A program made the translations under genes and the position numbers. A model generated the notes under the pieces. That model was not told the DNA's origin. It did not search any database and was given only the letters and a program-made list of their open reading frames with translations. This document shows, piece by piece, positions 6,847-36,283 of a stretch of 64,000 bases of DNA (position 1 is the stretch's first letter; the number at the start of each line of letters is the position of its first letter). This DNA is from a candidate division SR1 bacterium (GTDB lineage: Bacteria; Patescibacteriota; Gracilibacteria; Absconditabacterales; Absconditicoccaceae): assembly GCA_026397475.1 (NCBI GenBank), contig JAPLUT010000006.1:62001-126000 (forward strand), read 5' to 3'.

Positions 6847-8526
6847 TTACGCAGCTTTTTCTAAACTGATTGCTGTTTTACCGTTTTCTCCTGTTGAAAT
6901 ATTTGTTATTCTAACTTTGATTTTTTCTTGTTCGCTGAGTTCTTTCTCTTTTTTTTCTCCTTTGATAAGTCAAACAATATTTGGCGTGATATTTACATAA
7001 ATATGTTTTCCATTTACATTATGTACCACTCATTCATAAGTTTCTCCTATCTTGAGTTGGTCTAATGCAATATCTTTTAAGTCTTCGATATTTCCTATGT
7101 CTTTTACTCTTGGCGTGATTTTTTCACGATATGCCATAATTCTTGCTTTGATTTCTTCTGAATGCTTCTCATTAATATAAAATATGTCTAATATCCTTTG
7201 TAAATCTTCTTTGCTGATGTTTTTAATGATCAAAAAGTGCCCATCGGTAGTAAAATTTAATACCTTATTTGCTAATTCTTCCTGACTAAATAAATAGAAA
7301 TCTCCACTTGGAAATATTTTGATTAATCCAGCTTCATAGTATGATGCTACTTGTGCTCCATCGCTTATTTCATCTCCTAGTGCTATGTAAAATCTTTCTC
7401 CACCTTTATCTCCTTTAAACAGTCAGAATTGTCCTTTTGTATCCATTTCTGTTATTTGCTTAATATTTCTTTCTACTCTTTCTTTTTGTTTGTTAGAAAT
7501 TTCTTTGAGTGAAACTTCTTCTGTTAGTGGTTTTCCTCCTTTTCGATAATGTTTTGTAGCGTTATGCTGATTTAAAAAATCTTCTGACAATATTTCAAAT
7601 CATGTGTGTTTTGGGTCCTCGAAATATTGATATATTTCTTCGATTTGGAGATTACGATGCAATCCAAATAGTGTCCTGTAGCTATTTGTGTAATCCATCC
7701 CACTTGCTTGGTAGTCTAAGCTATCTACTATATCTATGAAATTTATAAACCTCTGCATTTGTTGTCTATATTGGTCTGGTATTTGTTGTAGCTTGTCTAA
7801 AATATAGTGCAACATGTGTGCACTTGACGTTGTTCTTCCTGTCTTTTCTGCTTCTAAAGAGCCATCAGAATGCTCGCTTATAATGGCCTGTGATCATATA
7901 AGTGATCTATGTTTATTCCCTTTGTGGATATTGTTGATTTTGATTCCGCTAACGGTTCATCCATTATCTATAGTTACTCATTTTTCTCCGATATGTTCGT
8001 TAGGAACTTCTTTTATGATGTTTTTAAGTTCAAGTTTTTCGCCTTTACTGTTTTTGAAAAAGCCAGTTATTTTTAGTAAGAATAACGATGCATCTTTGTC
8101 TATGTCTGATCCTTCGTGGAGGGTAACGTTTTTATTATACGCTCTTTTGATAATAGCAAAGATATCTTTTTTTATATCTCCTTTTGTTTTGTGCTCTAAT
8201 CTTACCTGTTTTTCAAGTTTTTTGTATTCTTCTTGTGTATATTGTGTTTTATGCTCTATGATTTTTTTCATATCCATTTTTGTTGTTCCATATTTTTTCA
8301 TCGCTTCTTGTTCTGCCTGCCTGTTATCTCTTTTAATTACTTGTTTTTCTACAAAATTATTAACGTCTTTTTCATACGCATTAGCTTTTTTGTTTTTTTC
8401 CTGTACGATCCCAAGAAGTGTTTTTTGGATTGCGTTTGCAGTTTCTTGTGTATTTCTTTCAGATTCAGATAAGTCTCTTACTCGTTCTTGAAGAGGTTCT
8501 AAGTCTTTAAATTTTGTTACTACCAT
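6847..8526 (-). CDS. 559-residue protein with C-terminal S1-like RNA-binding domain
   Basis: One open frame under code 25. Residues 1-120 are charged and coiled. The middle (about 200-400) carries VTIDNGGTVSGIKI, then AIISEHSDG followed by RTTSSAHMLHYILDKL, and later INFIDIVDSLDYQASG and NSYRTLFGLHRNL. The C-terminal 65 residues (GETYEGVVHNVNGKHIYV onward to ISLEKA) look like an S1/OB RNA-binding fold. The middle part faintly recalls DHH-type phosphoesterases, where DHH and then a TSA motif start a helix, but the DHH itself is not intact, so I do not call an enzyme. An RNA-related role is inferred from the S1 domain. Confidence 0.65.
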
Positions 8527-8665
8527 TGTCTATTTTTCTTTACATTATAAAAGGGATATGTATATTATAATCTAATTATACTTACAAATGCAAAAAAAAG
8601 CAAATTTTCTTGGTGAAAATTTGTAAACAAATTTTTAAGCACTTTTATGCTATTTATTCTTGTTT

Positions 8666-9739
<1,074 letters not shown>

Positions 9740-27990: not shown

Positions 27991-28022
27991 TAAAAAAAGC
28001 GAACATTGTGCTCGCTTTTTTT
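27991..28022 (-). terminator. terminator of the triple-repeat protein gene
   Basis: AAAAAAAGCGA / TCGCTTTTTTT stem around a GC-poor loop; usable on both strands. It lies 22 nt past the minus-strand stop at 28044. The 150 bp between it and the prepilin start contain no gene. Confidence 0.8.
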
Positions 28023-28043
28023 CATATCTTCATTGATAAATAG

Positions 28044-29888
28044 TTATCTTATACTGACGGTATAATCGTACCAATCTAAGAATGCTGTGTAAAACTCACC
28101 GAAATTGTCGTAGACCTTGATACTCGCATTGTCAATTATTTCTTTTGTCGCAGCCTTAAAGTCATTAGATCTGTTTATTCGTGTTGTATTGTTTCTGAGT
28201 CTAGAATATTTGCTTTTGAGGTTGTTTATCATAGTATTTCGACCATTATATATCCCTGATACGGTAATCATCTCGCTTGATGTAAATCCGTTTATGCTTC
28301 AATTGGAATTACTAGAACTTACAGTAAATGTGATTTCTTTATAAATAGAGGTGTCGTTCTCGTCATATACTCTTACTTTATAATTATAGTTATTTCTATT
28401 AAATTTTATGAAGCTTGTTAAATTGGCGCTACCATAGTTAGCACTTAGAAAGTCATACCCGTTAACATAGCTAGAATTCATGGTATAATAAGTAGAAGAA
28501 GTTGTTTGTATCCATGATGAAGAGCTAGGTAATTTGTAGTATACTTTGAAGTTAACGTTATCAAAGAAATCTGTGATCGTATAGTTGTTACTGTCACGAG
28601 CTACGATATTTAGATTCACATATTGAAATACACTTGGAGTGGTGTCGTCTGTACTTACGTAAAAGTTATTCAGGTCCCCATTTGAATTAGAATTGGTGGA
28701 TGCAACATTGAACGTTATCTCTCTATATATAGACGTGGTATTTTCGTCATATACCCTTACTTTATAATCGTAGGTACTATTTTTAAATTCTATAAAATTG
28801 CTGAGATTTGCACTACCATTGGTAGGGTATGATCAAAAGTCGTATCCGTTAATATAGCTAGAATTCATAAGATAATAACTGGAAGAAGTTGTCTGTGTCC
28901 AGTTTGAAGAACTAGGTAATTTATAATATACATTGAATCTTACTTTGTCAGAAAAGTCTGTAATAGTGTAATTATTACTATCACGAGCTGTGATGTTGAG
29001 ATCGACATATTGATATGTAGCGGGAGACACATCATCTGTGCTTACATAAAAATTATTTAGATCTCCATTTGAACTAGAATTGCTTGAACCTACATTGTAT
29101 GTTATCTCTTTGTAGATAGAAGTATTGTTCGCGTCGTATGCTCTTACTTTATAGTCATAATTGTTTCTGTTGAATCTGATGAAATTTGTTAAACTGGCAA
29201 TGCCGTTATCAGATGAAAGGAAATCATATCCATTTGTGTATTCAGCATTCATAGTGTAGTAGGTAGAAGAGGTTGTCTGTATCCAAGATGACGTTCCAGA
29301 AGGCCTATAATATACTTTGAAATTGATGGTATCCGTATAATCTGTCAGTGTATAATTATCGCTATCTCTTGCTTTTACCGTAAGATCGACATATTGAGAA
29401 GTGCTTGGTGTAGAATCATCTGTTGTTAGATAAAAGTTATTTAGATTGGTATTTGCGCTAGTAGAATCCTGTAAATTGTCTGAGCTTCGTCCCTCATTGT
29501 GAAAATCATATATCCATTGAGGATAGGTTCGTTCGCTATTACTACTTGGCTTTCCTGCTCGAGTAGTCGGAGCTGATTCATTATATCTTATCCAAAGTTT
29601 GATTCTTCCTAAAAGTTGTACATCATAAAAAAATTCTCCATTACACGAAGAAATGCTTCTTAGATTGTTGTCTGGTAATATCATATCACATCTAAGATTT
29701 GATGTTGATCATCCGTTGAGTGTACTTGAAAGGCTTCGTCTGTCTGTTCCTACTTTTTCTATGTTTACGCATGCAGTAATGCTATTCGCAAAATATACGT
29801 TTTTGCAACTTGTCGTATTTGCAGATGCTATAGCCGTAAGTCCTCATAGTATTGCTATGCTACTTAAGATTATAAAAATTTTTTTCAT
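28044..29888 (-). CDS. secreted protein with three tandem Ig-like domains
   Basis: 614 residues. Signal peptide MKKIFIILSSIAILGGLTAIASA, with one TGA glycine, then a Cys-containing N-terminal domain (residues 24-140). Three near-identical domains follow, starting at about residues 147, 275 and 404, each opening LNNFY(L/V)(S/T)TDD and containing QYV(D/N)L, the phrases TITDF, FKVYYKLPSSS and NGYDF, and closing YKEITFTV. Ser/Asn-rich linkers separate them. A unique helical C-terminus (from about 530) ends the protein. The architecture is that of a surface or secreted binding protein; near-identity of the repeats suggests recent duplication or gene conversion. Confidence 0.88.
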
Positions 29889-30033
29889 TGTTTTTGTGAT
29901 AAGTAGGTAAAGATGCCTATTTTTTTATTACTGTTATTATACTCTTTTTTACTGCTTTTGTCAACTTTTTTTTATTGATACTTGTAGGCTAATGTATATA
30001 TATTTGTGACTTTTAAATCGTCTAATTTTACTC

Positions 30034-30477
30034 ATGTATTTTATTGGCAGAAGCATTAAATACCTTTTACGATCTATATTTTCTATTGTTATTTTCCTTA
30101 TGTTTGTGGGATTAGCAAAGATGAATCGAAATACCTCTACCTATGTTGATTTTCTTAATAATAATAACTGGTCTGTATTTCATTGGTCGCAACCCGCTAC
30201 TTGGGGAGATCCCTTTTGGCCCAACAAACAATACTCTGGTGGTATTGCTGACGTTGTCTCTCTTGATGTCTTGAACTCTGAGGATTCTTGACTAAATGTT
30301 TATGATGCTACGTTTGAACAAGATCTTAATGCTATCGCTGATGGTTCTGTTTCTGGAACTAATGAGGATTTCTGATTTACTGCTGATGGACAAACTTCTT
30401 CTACTGTTGAAATTTCAGGTGCTGATGCAAAAGCCCAGCTTCTCAATATTATCAAAAAAAGCGAACTTAATAAATAA
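30034..30477 (+). CDS. membrane-anchored 147-residue protein, unknown
   Basis: A strongly hydrophobic N-terminal helix (residues 10-28, LLRSIFSIVIFLMFVGLA) followed by an extracytoplasmic-looking region rich in Asn, Trp, Ser and Asp (NNNWSVFHWSQPATWGDPFWP) and a C-terminal ADAKAQLLNIIKKSELNK helix. Two TGA glycines. It is the first of a run of same-strand genes leading to dnaA. No family recognised. Confidence 0.7.
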
Positions 30478-30521
30478 TTAATAAAAATACATAACAAAAA
30501 CAATACTGGTATTTTTATTTT

Positions 30522-31214
30522 ATGGGCCGGGTTTTTCCGTCTCTGTATTATCATTTTGCTCTTATGACCGTATTTCAAACTAATATATTTCAGACCATAT
30601 CTGTGCCCCAAAATGAGTCTTTGGAGATTATTGATCTTTTTGATGTTCAATGAAAAAAAATTATCGAATTATCTTCCCATAGTTCATTAACGTATCTCAT
30701 CGTTGGTTCAGATATGAATATAGATATTCAGTTGATAACTAAATGATCTTCTTGTACTTGTAAAATATTTGGTTTGTTTTCTTCTGATATTACTCATTCT
30801 GTCAGGGGATCTATAAAAATAGCCCTAGATCATTCAGGAACTTCGGCTAATGTGGAATTATTCTCTTTTCTTCATGATGGGGCTAAAGTCAATATTGACG
30901 GTTCTATTGATATAACTTCTCATCTTGATCAGGTTCATGGACGTTTAATTGAACACAATATTATTTTAGGGAAAAATGTTTCTCTTAAAACCTTGCCTAA
31001 ACTTAATGTCTCTTCTCATAATGTCCGTGCTGCTCATGGTGCCAATATTGATACACTTGATGCACAAAAACTTTTTTACATGATGAGCAGGGGACTGACA
31101 CAGAAACAATCACAAACACTACTTGTAAATTGATATATTGATTATGTGCTGGGTCATTTTAAAAATATTGGAGAAAAAGAAAAAAATAATATTTGTGCTG
31201 TTTTAGTAAAGTAA
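30522..31214 (+). CDS. short SufD/SufB-like protein
   Basis: 230 residues matching only the beta-helix core and C-terminal part of SufB/SufD scaffold proteins: IDGSIDITSHLDQVHGRLIE, KTLPKLNVSSHNVRAAHGANIDTLD (shown as overlapping blocks) and FYMMSRGLTQKQSQTLLVNGYI. In SUF systems SufBCD assembles Fe-S clusters; no SufC ATPase or SufS desulfurase is near. Normal SufD has 400 or more residues, so the N-terminal region is missing or replaced. ATG 30522 gives the longest form; ATG 30564 is an alternative start. Its stop overlaps the next start by one base (TAATG), so translation is coupled. Confidence 0.75.
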
Positions 31215-31963
31215 TGTTGCTTATGGGGCATAAAGTTTTCTCTTTTGTAAAAATGGTTTTTCTTGTCTTTGCTTTATTTTTGGCGAGTTTTTTGTTATTT
31301 ACTACAAGTAAGGTTCCTACTCCTGATCAAAAAATTGTTTTTGTTTTGGATGTTAATAAGACTATGAATACGCAAGATATCCTTTCCGGTGCTCGTCATC
31401 TTTCTAGACTTCAAGCTGCTAAATATCTTATTCAACAACAAATTATTTCTGATCCTCAATTTTCTTATGGACTCATTATCTTCAACGCCGGAGCTGATTA
31501 TATTATTCCTCCTACTTTTGATAGCTGAAGCTTCTTTTTGTATCTAAGTGGTATAACTAGCAATTTATTGTCTGATTGAGTAAAAAAATTTGCTGGATTG
31601 AGCTGATTTTTACAGAAGGATGGCTATACTTCTTATCTACTGATTTCTGATTTTGACACTCAAGATGTATCCTCTAATATTCTCTTGCCTAGGTGAATAC
31701 GCTTGCTAGGATTATGATCCTCCCTTGGAGACAAGGTCAGATATAGTAATGGTGTTGTCTATTATGATAATGGAAAGTCTGTATTTAGTGCTCGTAATGA
31801 TAAGTTCGCTCAATCGCTTAACAGGACCTATACTATACTGTCTCATATTGATCATGCGTCTTTTCATGGTTTGTTATTTCATGATTTCAATATCCCTCTT
31901 TCTCAACGTATATTTCTTTATGTTATATTGTGAATTCTTGTTATTTTAGTCGTTTTTTTATAA
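31214..31963 (+). CDS. VWA-domain membrane protein (BatA-like)
   Basis: 249 residues: an N-terminal membrane helix (residues 12-30), a von Willebrand factor A domain and a C-terminal helix (LFLYVILGILVILVVFL-like end). The MIDAS start is FVLDVNKTMNTQD, followed by SRLQAAKYLIQQQI and FSYGLIIFNAGADYI, which is the BatA/MoxR-associated layout. The usual DxSxS is DVNKT, so metal binding may be weakened. Such proteins work with MoxR AAA ATPases in envelope stress or complex maturation; no moxR is present here. It overlaps the SufD-like gene and is followed 8 nt later by a small membrane protein. Confidence 0.75.
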
Positions 31964-31971
31964 TCCATCGT

Positions 31972-32412
31972 ATGTCTGATTTTTCGTTCTTAGCACTTCC
32001 AAATGTTGAAGGTATGCGTCTGTGATGGTATGTTCAGATATTTTGTATTCTTGCTCTTTTTGGAATATCATTGTTTTTTGTTCTTTATTTTTGGCGTAAG
32101 TATCGTAGTAATAAGTCATTAGTTGCGCAATTATATCATTTTGATGAACAGTCACAGCATATTTCAAAACAAGTTCTTGGTCAAAAGATTCATAAAACAT
32201 CAGGAAAGACAAAGCTTATATTATTCATTGAATATTTGGAAAAGTTTACTACAACTACACCCTATACGGATATAAGGTGACTTTTGTCGATTCAATGATT
32301 TGCTCATCAAGATATTCAAGATCTCCAACGTGTATTATATGCTGATGAGAAATTGTCTACTAATTTAGAAAACAAAATAAATGAAAGAATCGTTTCAAAT
32401 TCAAAATTTTAA
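31972..32412 (+). CDS. small membrane protein of the VWA operon (DUF4381-like)
   Basis: 146 residues with one membrane helix (residues 20-43, WYVQIFCILALFGISLFFVLYFW) and then a cytoplasmic helical domain (RKYRSNKSLVAQLYHFDEQ). The plan and position after a VWA gene resemble DUF4381 proteins of MoxR-VWA operons. The resemblance is by layout only. The C-terminus runs into an AAATTTTAAA repeat that also ends the gene, 18 nt before dnaA. Confidence 0.55.
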
Positions 32413-32430
32413 ATTTTAAATTTGTTCTGT

Positions 32431-33909
32431 ATGCTTCTTGATGTTGTAGAACAATATGATGCGGAAAAAATAGCTTTGTTCCGTGGAGTTTGGGAGAGTA
32501 CGCTCTTGCATCTCGGACAGCAACAGGATCATAAAAAGATTCTTTCTTTTTTGTGTAGAGTGGGAATTTTGGATTTGGATGAAAAGGATAAAATGGTTAT
32601 TTTCTGAGTTCCTAATGAATTTATCCTCACTCAGGTAAGAAAGTTTTTTTCTAAAGCGCTCAAAGAATCCATCAATGAGGTATACAATCCTCATTTCTCA
32701 GTTAAGTTTGTTATCTATTCCAAATTTTCAGGTACGAGTGAATTGCTTATTGATCTTAAAAAACTCTTACATATCAAAGAAACTAAGGCTTCTGAATTCA
32801 GTGCAGAAAAAAAGACAATAAAAACCGAGTTGTCTCATTTTTTTGGTATTCTTTTTGATCCTAAATTTACTTTTGATTCGTTTGTTGTTTGAGCTACAAA
32901 TAATATTGCATTTTCAGCAGCTAAAGCAGTTACTGCTAAACCAGGACAAGCATATAATCCATTATTTTTGTATGGAAGTGTAGGACTGGGAAAGACGCAT
33001 TTGATGCAAGCCATAGGAAACGATATCATGCAAAGATATCCTGATAAAGTAGTTGTATATTTGCCTACGAGTAAATTAATCGACGAAATCGTTACCGCAA
33101 TCAAAGCAAATAAACTTACTAATGTGCTTAAAAAGTTTGAAGATGTTGATGTATTGCTTATAGATGATGTGCAATTCCTTGCAGACAAAGACAAGACTCA
33201 AGAAATATTTCATAATATTTTCAATGATTTTCAACTTAGACAAAAACAAATTATCATCTCTTCTGATCGTCCTCCAAAGGAGCTTGTTCATATTGAACCA
33301 AGACTTAAATCTCGTTTTGCTTTGGGACTGGTTGCTGATATTAAGTCGCCAGATTTTGAAACTAGGATTGCGATTCTCCAGTCTAAGCTTATGAATAAAG
33401 GCGAAGATCTAGACTTCCATTTGCTTGAAATTATAGCGAAATATATCAAAGAAAACGTTAGAGAGCTTGAATGAGCTCTCAATATTCTTCTTAGTAGAAA
33501 GGCTATCTCCCACAAAGACGTTGAAGAAAAAGATGTATATGAGTGTCTCAAGACACTTGGATATAAGGTAGAACATACCGCTGAAGCTACAGAAATCGCT
33601 GTTCAGTCCAATACCAAGTGAACTAAAAATTACGATCTTCTTGTAGATATGGTCGCTCAGTATTATGGTCTCTCTGTCCAAGAATTAAAATCTGAATCAA
33701 GAAAAAAAGAAATCACCAATGCGCGTCAGCTCTTGATGTTATTGGCTAAAAAATATTTTAGCCGGACGCTTGAAAGGATAGGTGATCATTTCGGTGGAAA
33801 ATGACATGCCGCAGTTATTTATGCTATTAATAATACGGAAAAAAAAATAAAAAAAGACCAAGATTTGGCCCATGATTATGAGGTATTTGTCGACCGACTA
33901 GGGAAGTAG
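32431..33909 (+). CDS. dnaA: chromosomal replication initiator DnaA
   Basis: AAA+ initiator that opens the origin. 492 residues. Domain I is poorly conserved; the AAA+ core has Walker A YGSVGLGKTH (181-190), Walker B VLLIDDVQFL (241-250), sensor I IIISSDRPP and the SRF box EPRLKSRF. Domain IV ends with a helix-turn-helix DnaA signature (LERIGDHFGGKGHAAVIYAI), where one Gly of GGKGH is TGA. The start at ATG 32431 lies 18 nt after the upstream gene. dnaN does not follow. No TTATCCACA-type DnaA box is obvious within a few hundred bases, so I cannot place oriC here. Confidence 0.96.
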
Positions 33910-34255
33910 GTTATATTATTGTTGTTCCCTCTTTGTTTGAAAGAGGGGGGACCCGTGAGGGTGGGAGATTTATATCTTCCATTTTTTTTTAATATTTCTT
34001 TCATCGCCTTGCCGGCTGGGCCTTATTCGTCCACGAATGTGGGCTTTTTTCCTTCCAGGTGCCCTCCGACTTCGCGGAGGATAAAAAAAAAGTAAGCAAA
34101 AAAACCCTCGGCACCATTAGGGCAATATCATGGATTTATTTTGATCATATCAGGATAATTCCCCCAGACGTTGCTGGTGGTTTTCAGCTCGACCTACTTT
34201 TCACGCTGATTTGGTAATGGTGCCAAAAAAATAAATAACAAAAAACCTATCTATT
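33910..34255. other. structured non-coding region downstream of dnaA
   Basis: No gene is seen in these 346 bp. Three parts: a palindromic repeat CCCTCTTT..AAAGAGGG with GGACCCGTGAGGGTGGGAG (33932-33969); a GC-rich hairpin CCCTCCG..CGGAGG near 34070; and a 115-bp segment bounded by a perfect 10-bp inverted pair GGCACCATTA (34110-34119) and TAATGGTGCC (34215-34224). Inside the last, on the minus strand, are two stems (TCAGC/GCTGA and CCAG/CTGG), and a T-run follows the closing stem, so a minus-strand small RNA with its own termination is plausible. It does not match 5S, SRP, tmRNA or RNase P by eye. Confidence 0.45.
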
Positions 34256-36283
34256 TTATACTATTTGTTGTAGCAATCCCTCTGCATTTTCATGCTCTTC
34301 TGCGGTTTGGAAATCAGGAGAAAATTTGTGCATATTGCCTGCGAGGTTTTCTTTTTTTTCTAGTGTGGTGACGAAGGTATCTAGGTCTTGTAAATTTACT
34401 TGGTCGTTTTTGCTAAATTTTTTGAAAAATTTCAAAGTCTTTGATCATCGTTGGTCGCTGTAATTTTCTGCTCATCTTTCTTCATCAATTCCTTTGAGTG
34501 CTTTTTGTCGTTTGGGTTCTAAATTTCCGTGATCTTCTCTGCTTATGAGTTTGTCTGATCTTTCTATGAGTGATCTGAATTTTCTTAATTCGTCTGACCT
34601 CATGTTTTCTGTGCTTTTGTCTCGAATATTCAAAAGCTTTCGCGCTTTATTTTCTGTTGTTTTGTTGATGGATTTGTCTCTGTTCATTTCTCCAAGTACG
34701 GCTTCAGGTATAAAAGTAGTATTTAATGTCTGTGCTGTGATATTTTTTTCTACATCTCTTTCTACACGAGTCTTTACTAGTGCTTCTTGTCAGTAGTTTT
34801 TTAGCAATTCTTTGCTTATTTCTTCTTTGAATGACGCCTCAAAATCTTCGTTGCTTGATGAATTTTCTAGTAGTGTTGTGAATTTATTCTCTGAAACTTT
34901 TTGCGCTTGCGCTGTTAGCAAGCCAAGTGTAGGAAGTTTTACTCATAAACTATTTTTTCATCATCAATGTATTCCAAGGGCAAATGCTTCTGATACTCCA
35001 TCAAAATGAAGAAAATCATCTGACTTCAATTGGGCGTCGGGATTGGTAAGATTATAATAGAATCCTACGCTATTTCCCTTGATATTCCCATTGATATACA
35101 AAACATCATCACTTTTTTCGTTTTGATCTGTTCATTTATTTATACTAAATCCATCTTGAGCACTGATATCAAAGTCTTTTGAAAAATTATCTTTGTTGAT
35201 AGTGCTGCTATCAAAATATTTTGCTAATCCGCTTATGCAACTTCCCATAACTCTTTGCTTGATGATTGTTTGGCTTCTGCTAGGAAGATTTTCTTTTACT
35301 TCTGCTATGGCAGTTGCGTATTCTTCATTCGCTTTTTTCCCTGCTGGATTTTCTATGTTTTTTTTGTCTGTGTTTGTTCTAAATGTTTTGATAAGATCTT
35401 TGTTTGCTTGGATACTATTTCTTACATTTTTATCAGAAATAAATTTAACGTAAAGATCGAATTCTTTATCGAAGTCTTTTGATTCTGGAAGGGGAGGCGT
35501 TGTTATCTTATCGAACTTGTCTGAATTGTTTGCAAAGTTGTTAAGGCTTGAATTTGTTGCTACTAGAGCATCAGTATGCTCTGGATTTTTTGTGTTTGCA
35601 AGCGAGGTTCTTTCTCCTGGCAATATTTTTTCTAATTTTTCTAAATTATCCAAGAATTCTGTGTTTCATGCTTTTTTAAGTTCTTCTCCATGAACTTCTT
35701 TGGTAAATATAAAATTAGCATAGGTATTTACGTCTACCTTTGCATCCTCTAAGGCCTTTTTCTTTATTGAAGAGATGTTGTTTTTTATTGTTTCTATTTT
35801 GTCTTTTTCTGTATCTTTTGCTTTATATTTTGCATCTAATTTGTTGTATGATTCTTGAGTTGCTTTTCGTGTTTCAAGAAGAGTGTCCTTTTCTGTTACT
35901 GTATCTTTTTCTTCTTTTTTTTCTTTTTTATTTTCTTTATTTTCTTCTTTATTCTCTTCATAGACTTTTTTTTCTCTAGGTATTACATTAACTATTTCTT
36001 GAGTTCAATTCTTATTTAAGAAGGTATCTACAGCTATTAGTAGTGCCTTTTTATCGTCTTCGTTTGCATCGGCGATATTGCTAAATTCTAACTCATCAAG
36101 TGTTTTGATATAATTGTTTATGGGTTGTGAAAAACTATTTTGAATCTCGTTTAAAACTGGTTTTACCTTATTTAAGGTATCTTTGTCCGAAATTTTTGAC
36201 TCTAAAATTTGATCAAGCGTTTCTTTTTGCTGATTATCTTTCTTTACATCTTGTTTGTCTGTCTGTTCTATATTTTCTACCAT
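34256..36283 (-). CDS. 675-residue charged protein, unknown
   Basis: A single frame under code 25 from ATG 36283. Residues 1-150 are acidic and Lys/Glu-rich with a strong coiled-coil character (KENKKEKKEEKDTVTEKD); a central domain (about 200-480) holds AGKKANEEYATAIAEVKENL, KQRVMGSCISGLAKYFDSS and DDVLYINGNIKGNSVGFYYN; the C-terminal 150 residues are again helical and charged. No signal peptide. It follows the secreted 257-residue gene by 19 nt on the same strand and may be its partner. No family recognised. Confidence 0.75.

Follow-up and report, generated by a model that had tools for sequence, protein, structure and literature searches.

A compact SufD encoded ahead of dnaA and away from SufB and SufC in a candidate division SR1 genome

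The window, a 64,000 nucleotide stretch of contig JAPLUT010000006.1 from a candidate division SR1 bacterium (Absconditicoccaceae), carries at positions 30034-33909 five closely spaced plus strand genes encoding P1, a short SufD-like protein, a von Willebrand factor A (VWA) domain protein, P3 and DnaA. The open reading frame (ORF) of the SufD-like protein, 30522-31214, very probably encodes a compact form of SufD, a subunit of a SUF iron-sulfur assembly machine that is normal although its genes are dispersed. Its fold, its invariant residues, its partner genes and the lack of any SufD beside SufBC were established by computation; from these we infer complex formation and activity. The shortened protein is apparently intact and ordinary in function, and it does not have the look of a remnant.

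The SUFBD core family PF01458 is matched with an E-value of 5.6e-25 and 88.6 bits (cut-off 27) over profile positions 78-231 of 232, and the protein is closer to SufD than to SufB both in the NCBIfam models (97.8 against 49.3 bits) and in a phmmer search of the PDB (51 against 20.6 bits). An AlphaFold2 model (pLDDT 90.7, pTM 0.86, 31 sequences) predicts a β-helix and a C-terminal helical domain, and the nearest folds found by Foldseek are chains of E. coli SufD, with TMq 0.80-0.83 for 5awf, 1vh4 and 2zu0 (5awf_B among the best) and 0.70-0.71 for the SufD chains of 5awg; SufB chains rank after those of SufD. For comparison across relatives we used a first set of 59 genomes of mixed quality, the window's own included, of which 36 belong to its family and 30 of these 36 have a SufD match. 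An alignment of 31 sequences, comprising 28 of the 30 family SufDs (G020 and G029 were left out), two from family f14 and the SufB of the window's genome, has only four invariant columns (31/31), P159, H172, Y186 and G191. By PDB alignment H172 corresponds to His360 of E. coli SufD, and the same offset of 188 places the other three on Pro347, Tyr374 and Gly379. In the review PMC6006206 all four E. coli residues are described as highly conserved, His360 as essential and as a probable ligand of the cluster, and the C-terminal helices as having a SufC-binding role. The window protein thus shares with SufD of the E. coli SufBC2D complex the β-helix core, the C-terminal helical domain and the equivalents of these four residues. 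It differs in length (216-230 against 423 residues), in having Ala at the place of Cys358 and in the separation of its gene from sufBC. Where the genome's own SufB reads HTQCDAL the window SufD reads RLIEHNI, with Glu at the place of SufB Cys405.

The expected partners are encoded elsewhere in the genome, the assembly of which is 99.57% complete. There are only two SufBD matches, the window SufD and a SufB on contig C1, where SufC and SufB lie together (L003:6965-7696 and 7669-9084, the SufB start overlapping the SufC end) and score above the cut-offs of their models (SufC TIGR01978, 252 bits, cut-off 212.8; SufB TIGR01980, 614 bits, cut-off 346.4). By alignment this SufB keeps Cys, Cys, His and Glu at the positions of E. 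coli C254, C405, H433 and E434. A NifU_N/SufU-like gene lies 3 kb beyond SufB (L003:12108-12515), and a SufS-family desulfurase is encoded at C2:142273. With SufD, SufC-SufB and the SufU-like gene, and SufS standing apart, the SUF set is present but split over at least three places. The original prediction, made from the window alone, was right that the short SufD-like gene stands away from SufBC and had asked where these were; it had also considered that a full SufBCD operon might reveal the window gene as a remnant. No SufD is found beside the SufC-SufB locus of this genome, so the window SufD is not a spare copy. In the assembly we propose, the compact SufD would pair with this SufB through the β-helix interface carrying the Pro347 and His360 equivalents, one SufC would attach to its C-terminal helices, and the sulfur would come from SufS together with the SufU-like protein.

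Several observations weigh against so plain a reading. The 97.8 bits scored with the NCBIfam SufD model fall far under the equivalog cut-off of TIGR01981 (222), and because only positions 119-266 of 275 of that profile are matched as well, we call the protein a compact variant and not a canonical SufD. The N-terminal helical domain is absent, the model opening with a strand at residues 15-20 and no N-terminal helix, and the first part of the β-helix is predicted to be lost too, leaving the later turns and the C-terminal helices. Both presumed sulfur-supply proteins are below their equivalog cut-offs, the SufU-like protein with 48.8 bits (cut-off 92.5) and the SufS-family protein with 397.6 bits (cut-off 475.1). 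Finally, promoter-like sites in the region are at chance level (22 against a shuffled expectation of 20.7), which makes the scans weak evidence for the co-transcription considered below.

The short form, which had been thought unusual, proved to be the rule in the family. It is present in all 30 first-set family genomes with a SufD and in all 13 family genomes added later, and also in six class genomes of other families. SufC, SufB and short SufD stand together in other families of the class (L054, L057, L060, L069) and in one genome of the same family (G012, L058), which suggests that the side-by-side order is the older arrangement. Longer SufD-type genes occur in five class genomes (L061, L065, L071, L072, L073), their lengths, read in genetic code 25, being upper bounds. 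In G013 a NifU_N/SufU-like gene (L066:7088-7492) lies directly 3' of SufD, which ties the short SufD to the SUF pathway independently.

The two genomes of genus g20 (G027 and G035) have no SufB or SufD match, and each has a gene for a SufBD-family protein that is convergent with dnaA and one gene away from it (L134:1734-2720 and L140:2001-2987). The 328-residue L134 protein aligns over its full length with the archaeal SMS protein MJ0034 of M. jannaschii (E 4.6e-26), and judging by this similarity SUF has possibly been replaced in these two genomes by an SMS-type system. The SMS minimal system (SmsB/SmsC) has in common with the window SufD the SufBD-type β-helix scaffold, but it is described in PMC12442378 as working without SufD, whereas the window's genome has a true SufB, SufC and SufD. 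The fold match of the window SufD to SMS is also much weaker (9h78_B, TMq 0.31). An SMS system does not fit this genome, whose SufB scores 614 bits with the SufB model against 237 with SmsB and which also has a SufD.

The features of the gene row and its surroundings, with ORFs read with TGA as Gly (code 25), a code that is one ground for placing the genome in Absconditabacteria, and promoters and terminators taken from consensus scans, are as follows.

28044-29888, minus strand: SEC, a probably exported protein of 614 residues with three similar repeat domains; divergent neighbour upstream of P1, outside the proposed operon
29964-29936, minus strand: promoter-like hexamers TTGACA-17-TATAAT
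29975-30004, plus strand: promoter-like hexamers TTGATA-18-TATATT
30034 (ATG) to stop 30475-30477, plus strand: P1, a single-pass membrane protein of 147 residues with an acidic tail and the motif EDFGF near the C-terminus, without family match
30522-31214, plus strand: compact SufD (PF01458, model, alignment), ORF of 230 residues; start more likely at ATG 30564, giving 216 residues
31214 (ATG) to stop 31961-31963, plus strand: Bat-like VWA protein of 249 residues, with two hydrophobic transmembrane (TM) stretches and a metal ion-dependent adhesion site (MIDAS) changed to DVNKT
31972 (ATG) to stop 32410-32412, plus strand: P3, 146 residues, one TM stretch, the usual VWA neighbour
32431 (ATG) to stop 33907-33909, plus strand: dnaA (Pfam Bac_DnaA E 1.7e-59, Bac_DnaA_C E 6.6e-21)
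33957-33986 and 34029-34044, plus strand: terminator-like hairpins 3' of dnaA

Since the SufDs of relatives begin at about the second Met, translation probably starts at M15 (base 30564), leaving an 86 nucleotide gap after P1. The SufD stop and the VWA start share one base (TAATG), VWA and P3 are separated by 8 nucleotides and P3 and dnaA by 18. The tight run into dnaA and its 18 nucleotide gap had thus been described exactly; of the overlaps also described, this single base between SufD and VWA is the only one in the row if ATG starts are used. The scan for plus strand terminator-like hairpins found none from P1 to the start of dnaA and one inside dnaA, at 33461. Spacing and the weak consensus scans make a single operon P1-SufD-VWA-P3-dnaA plausible, in which one transcript would probably carry SufD together with P1 upstream and VWA-P3-dnaA downstream, the VWA-P3-dnaA tail being an order that part of the family has inherited. 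Beyond dnaA and convergent with it is a Lys/Glu-rich protein of 675 residues (34256-36283, minus strand) with no family match over the cut-off.

The same order recurs in relatives, so the row is not a chance arrangement: it is kept in all eight genomes of the genus with an assembled SufD, and in g2 and g3. Outside part of the family, however, the positions are scattered, an outcome that the original prediction had named as counting against it. In the first set dnaA is within 4 kb of SufD on the same contig in 13 of the 30 family genomes (genera g1, g2, g3, g8 and g19, with SufD next to dnaA but no VWA gene in g8 and g19); in the other 17 SufD is away from dnaA, on another contig in 13 and at least 41 kb off on the same contig in four. 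Among the 13 family genomes added later one has the pair (G070, g19). A DnaA tree built from 33 genomes places 12 of the 13 adjacent genomes in one group of 19 rows (support 95/78, not starred), the exception being the long-branched G015. The adjacency label requires four changes (shuffled mean 10.5), at least two being forced by well-supported branches; in this count G002 was scored 'no' although its contig starts inside P3 and so cannot be judged. Because adjacency clusters on the tree, we take it as an inherited order with later moves. SufD before dnaA is a lineage-specific inherited order and gives no evidence of the coupling to growth that had been proposed. Nor is a replication origin beside dnaA supported, as the window shows no excess of DnaA-box-like sites with at most one mismatch (16, shuffled expectation 18.9) and there is no GC-skew switch around dnaA (28000-36000). 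On both counts dnaA is perhaps no marker of the origin in this genome.

The altered MIDAS of the VWA protein was borne out, and its assignment as BatA-like is tentatively favoured by a weak model (pLDDT 65), for which the first three Foldseek ranks are chains of two Bacteroides proteins, 4jdu (aerotolerance) and 3ibs (BatB), at TMq 0.44-0.45. Family models match it below cut-off (Pfam VWA_2, E 5e-4) or far below (NCBIfam BatB, E 0.0012). The MIDAS reads DVNKT instead of DxSxS and has no Thr at the aligned place, the Asp being kept. Six genomes of the genus, counting that of the window, have a DxNx(T/S) site lacking Thr at the aligned second place (in G007 a Thr is adjacent); in G004 and G006 the MIDAS is changed further and the VWA domain lacks about 50 residues, and in G009 the site is DMHES. 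The copies of G010, G012, G019 and G027 have intact DxSxS sites, as do tandem Bat-like pairs in other genomes; relatives of the VWA protein in the class form tandem BatA-BatB-like pairs (L095, L097, L098, L099).

VWA and P3 lie between SufD and dnaA in g1, g2 and g3 (10 genomes), P3 being a weak match in g2, so that SufD and VWA are neighbours in these three genera. In G019 VWA precedes dnaA, P3 is not recognised and SufD sits on a different contig, and in G014 P3 adjoins a VWA gene away from dnaA (L096). The suggested functional pairing of SufD with VWA is not supported by these comparisons. A match of P3 to DUF4381 reaches only E 0.16 and is not claimed. DUF58 proteins are usual Bat partners. 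So is MoxR, according to PMC3557215, where a Leptospira biflexa batABD mutant is reported to match the wild type in susceptibility to oxidants. One operon of VWA with MoxR and DUF58 was considered and rejected for this genome, the single MoxR (C2:65505) and the single DUF58 (C2:149811) being apart from the VWA gene and from each other. The MoxR-type ATPase and DUF58 each stand alone on C2, so that a Bat-type set is dispersed within one genome. With BatA and BatB of the Bacteroides aerotolerance (Bat) system the window protein appears, from the model, to share a VWA fold with flanking TM stretches; unlike in Bat systems, the MIDAS is changed in the window's genus and neither MoxR nor DUF58 is beside the VWA gene. 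In our reading VWA and P3 form a putative derived pair of Bat-type membrane proteins, the metal site of which has changed in this genus.

Neither dnaA nor the VWA gene stays with SufD as faithfully as P1 does. No family in Pfam (run on the longer ORF form) or NCBIfam matches P1, and the P1 profile gives matches in 19 of 49 family genomes, one in each of the 19, all immediately 5' of SufD in the same orientation and independently of whether dnaA follows. Genera g4 and g14 have no profile match, yet at the same place they encode a single-TM protein that is shorter and has an acidic tail. In the clade formed by genera g1, g2, g3, g4, g14, g15, g19 and g21, which was defined after the first 18 genomes had been seen, P1 or a P1-like protein precedes SufD in all 28 assessable genomes. 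Ten of these, all the further family genomes of clade genera, were examined only after the pattern had been noticed, and G002 and G030 were dropped since their SufD is missing or cut by a contig end. The 28 comprise 18 profile matches and ten proteins of g4 and g14 that are P1-like by position, single TM stretch, acidic tail and, in nine, the tail motif; these ten are presumably homologous to P1. That motif, [FYW]G[FW], is present in 25 of the 28 against 1.5 expected when tails are shuffled, and is absent from both g21 genomes and from G029; the pattern was fixed after the sequences had been seen, with Trp added after G065, and the strict form [FY]GF is found in 24 of 28, and in eight of the ten later genomes. 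The tail of G006 is not acidic (net +1). Outside the clade P1 is beside SufD only as a weak, motif-less match (G014, the nineteenth), and three g18 genomes added to the comparison have none.

Other genes accompany SufD less regularly. SEC, which has a hydrophobic stretch at N-terminal residues 4-22, has divergent relatives at the SufD loci of 15 genomes including the window's, 14 of them beside P1, and none in the 20 dnaA-only loci examined. Protein X (130 residues, no Pfam or NCBIfam match over the cut-off; e.g. L043:1159-1542 and L047:7521-7916) is encoded in 27 of the 49 family genomes, directly after SufD in 17 of the 27 and one gene away in G019; the remaining nine have it at another place or on a different contig, or lack a full SufD for comparison. 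The X profile finds none in any of the 11 genomes of g1, g2 and g3 (nine of them of the window's genus), where VWA-P3 follow SufD, and X is thereby ruled out as a missing SUF part of this genome.

The constancy of P1 raises the question of whether it tethers the SUF scaffold, its tail docking SufD by the aromatic-Gly-Phe motif to form a membrane-bound iron-sulfur assembly site. The position of P1 upstream of SufD throughout the clade, even where dnaA is elsewhere, the confinement of its profile matches to that position with never a second match, and the excess of the motif would all fit such a tether. The only other hint we met of SufD tied to a growth-linked membrane protein is in Waddlia chondrophila, where a yeast two-hybrid screen with RodZ gave SufD as a candidate interactor (PMC6956297). 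SufD was, however, undetected there by immunoblot and its localisation is described as less clear, and P1, for its part, has no family match. The basic residues around the P1 TM helix, 65 on the N side and 47 after it, favour a tail outside the cell, which speaks against direct contact with SufD, and the motif is missing in three clade members, was chosen with the sequences in view and does not extend beyond the clade. We therefore think the tether unlikely, and hold it equally doubtful that in this clade the SUF scaffold gained in P1 a dedicated membrane partner, often with X after SufD, that brings cluster assembly to the membrane. This is the sole form in which the membrane-bound assembly factor of the original prediction may survive, through a protein it had not singled out.

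Two further explanations are less probable still. The tight spacing, and the order conserved across the genus and in g2 and g3, might suggest a functional module coupling iron-sulfur assembly, envelope sensing by VWA and replication initiation. Its parts, however, occur separately, as VWA-dnaA without SufD in G019, SufD-dnaA without VWA in g8 and g19, and SufD without dnaA in 17 of 30 genomes; the DnaA tree shows the pattern that an inherited order predicts, and the MIDAS is altered, with part of the VWA domain missing in two genomes. A module of this kind is improbable. Most improbable of all is that SufD is a decaying remnant and SufB-SufC works alone as in SMS-type minimal systems. The N-terminal half is indeed missing, SufBC-only systems exist (PMC12442378, PMC12584684), and G027 and G035 carry an SMS-type protein in place of SufB and SufD. 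But the interface and catalytic residues are invariant over 30 SufDs, the predicted fold is confident and complete, the short length is similar across the family, and the genome's own SufB is a SufB and not an SmsB. The SufD subunit of a dispersed SUF machine remains by far the best account of the window gene.

In the open-licence literature we found nothing joining Absconditabacteria, the present name of SR1, with SufD, or SufB/SufD with the Candidate Phyla Radiation, and among the matches listed for Gracilibacteria with SUF assembly there was no mention of Gracilibacteria. The link of P1 to SufD is the only part of these findings that may be new, and the P1 motif offers a concrete handle on whether membrane linkage of a SUF scaffold can occur. 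An annotation that relies on the SufD equivalog model would overlook the compact SufD, as its score is far below the cut-off, and such genomes could be misread as SufBC-only. The compact form shows how far SufD can shrink without losing the residues of its interface and of catalysis, in bacteria whose genomes measure about 1.2 Mb, and marks a minimal part of SufD that is worth testing.

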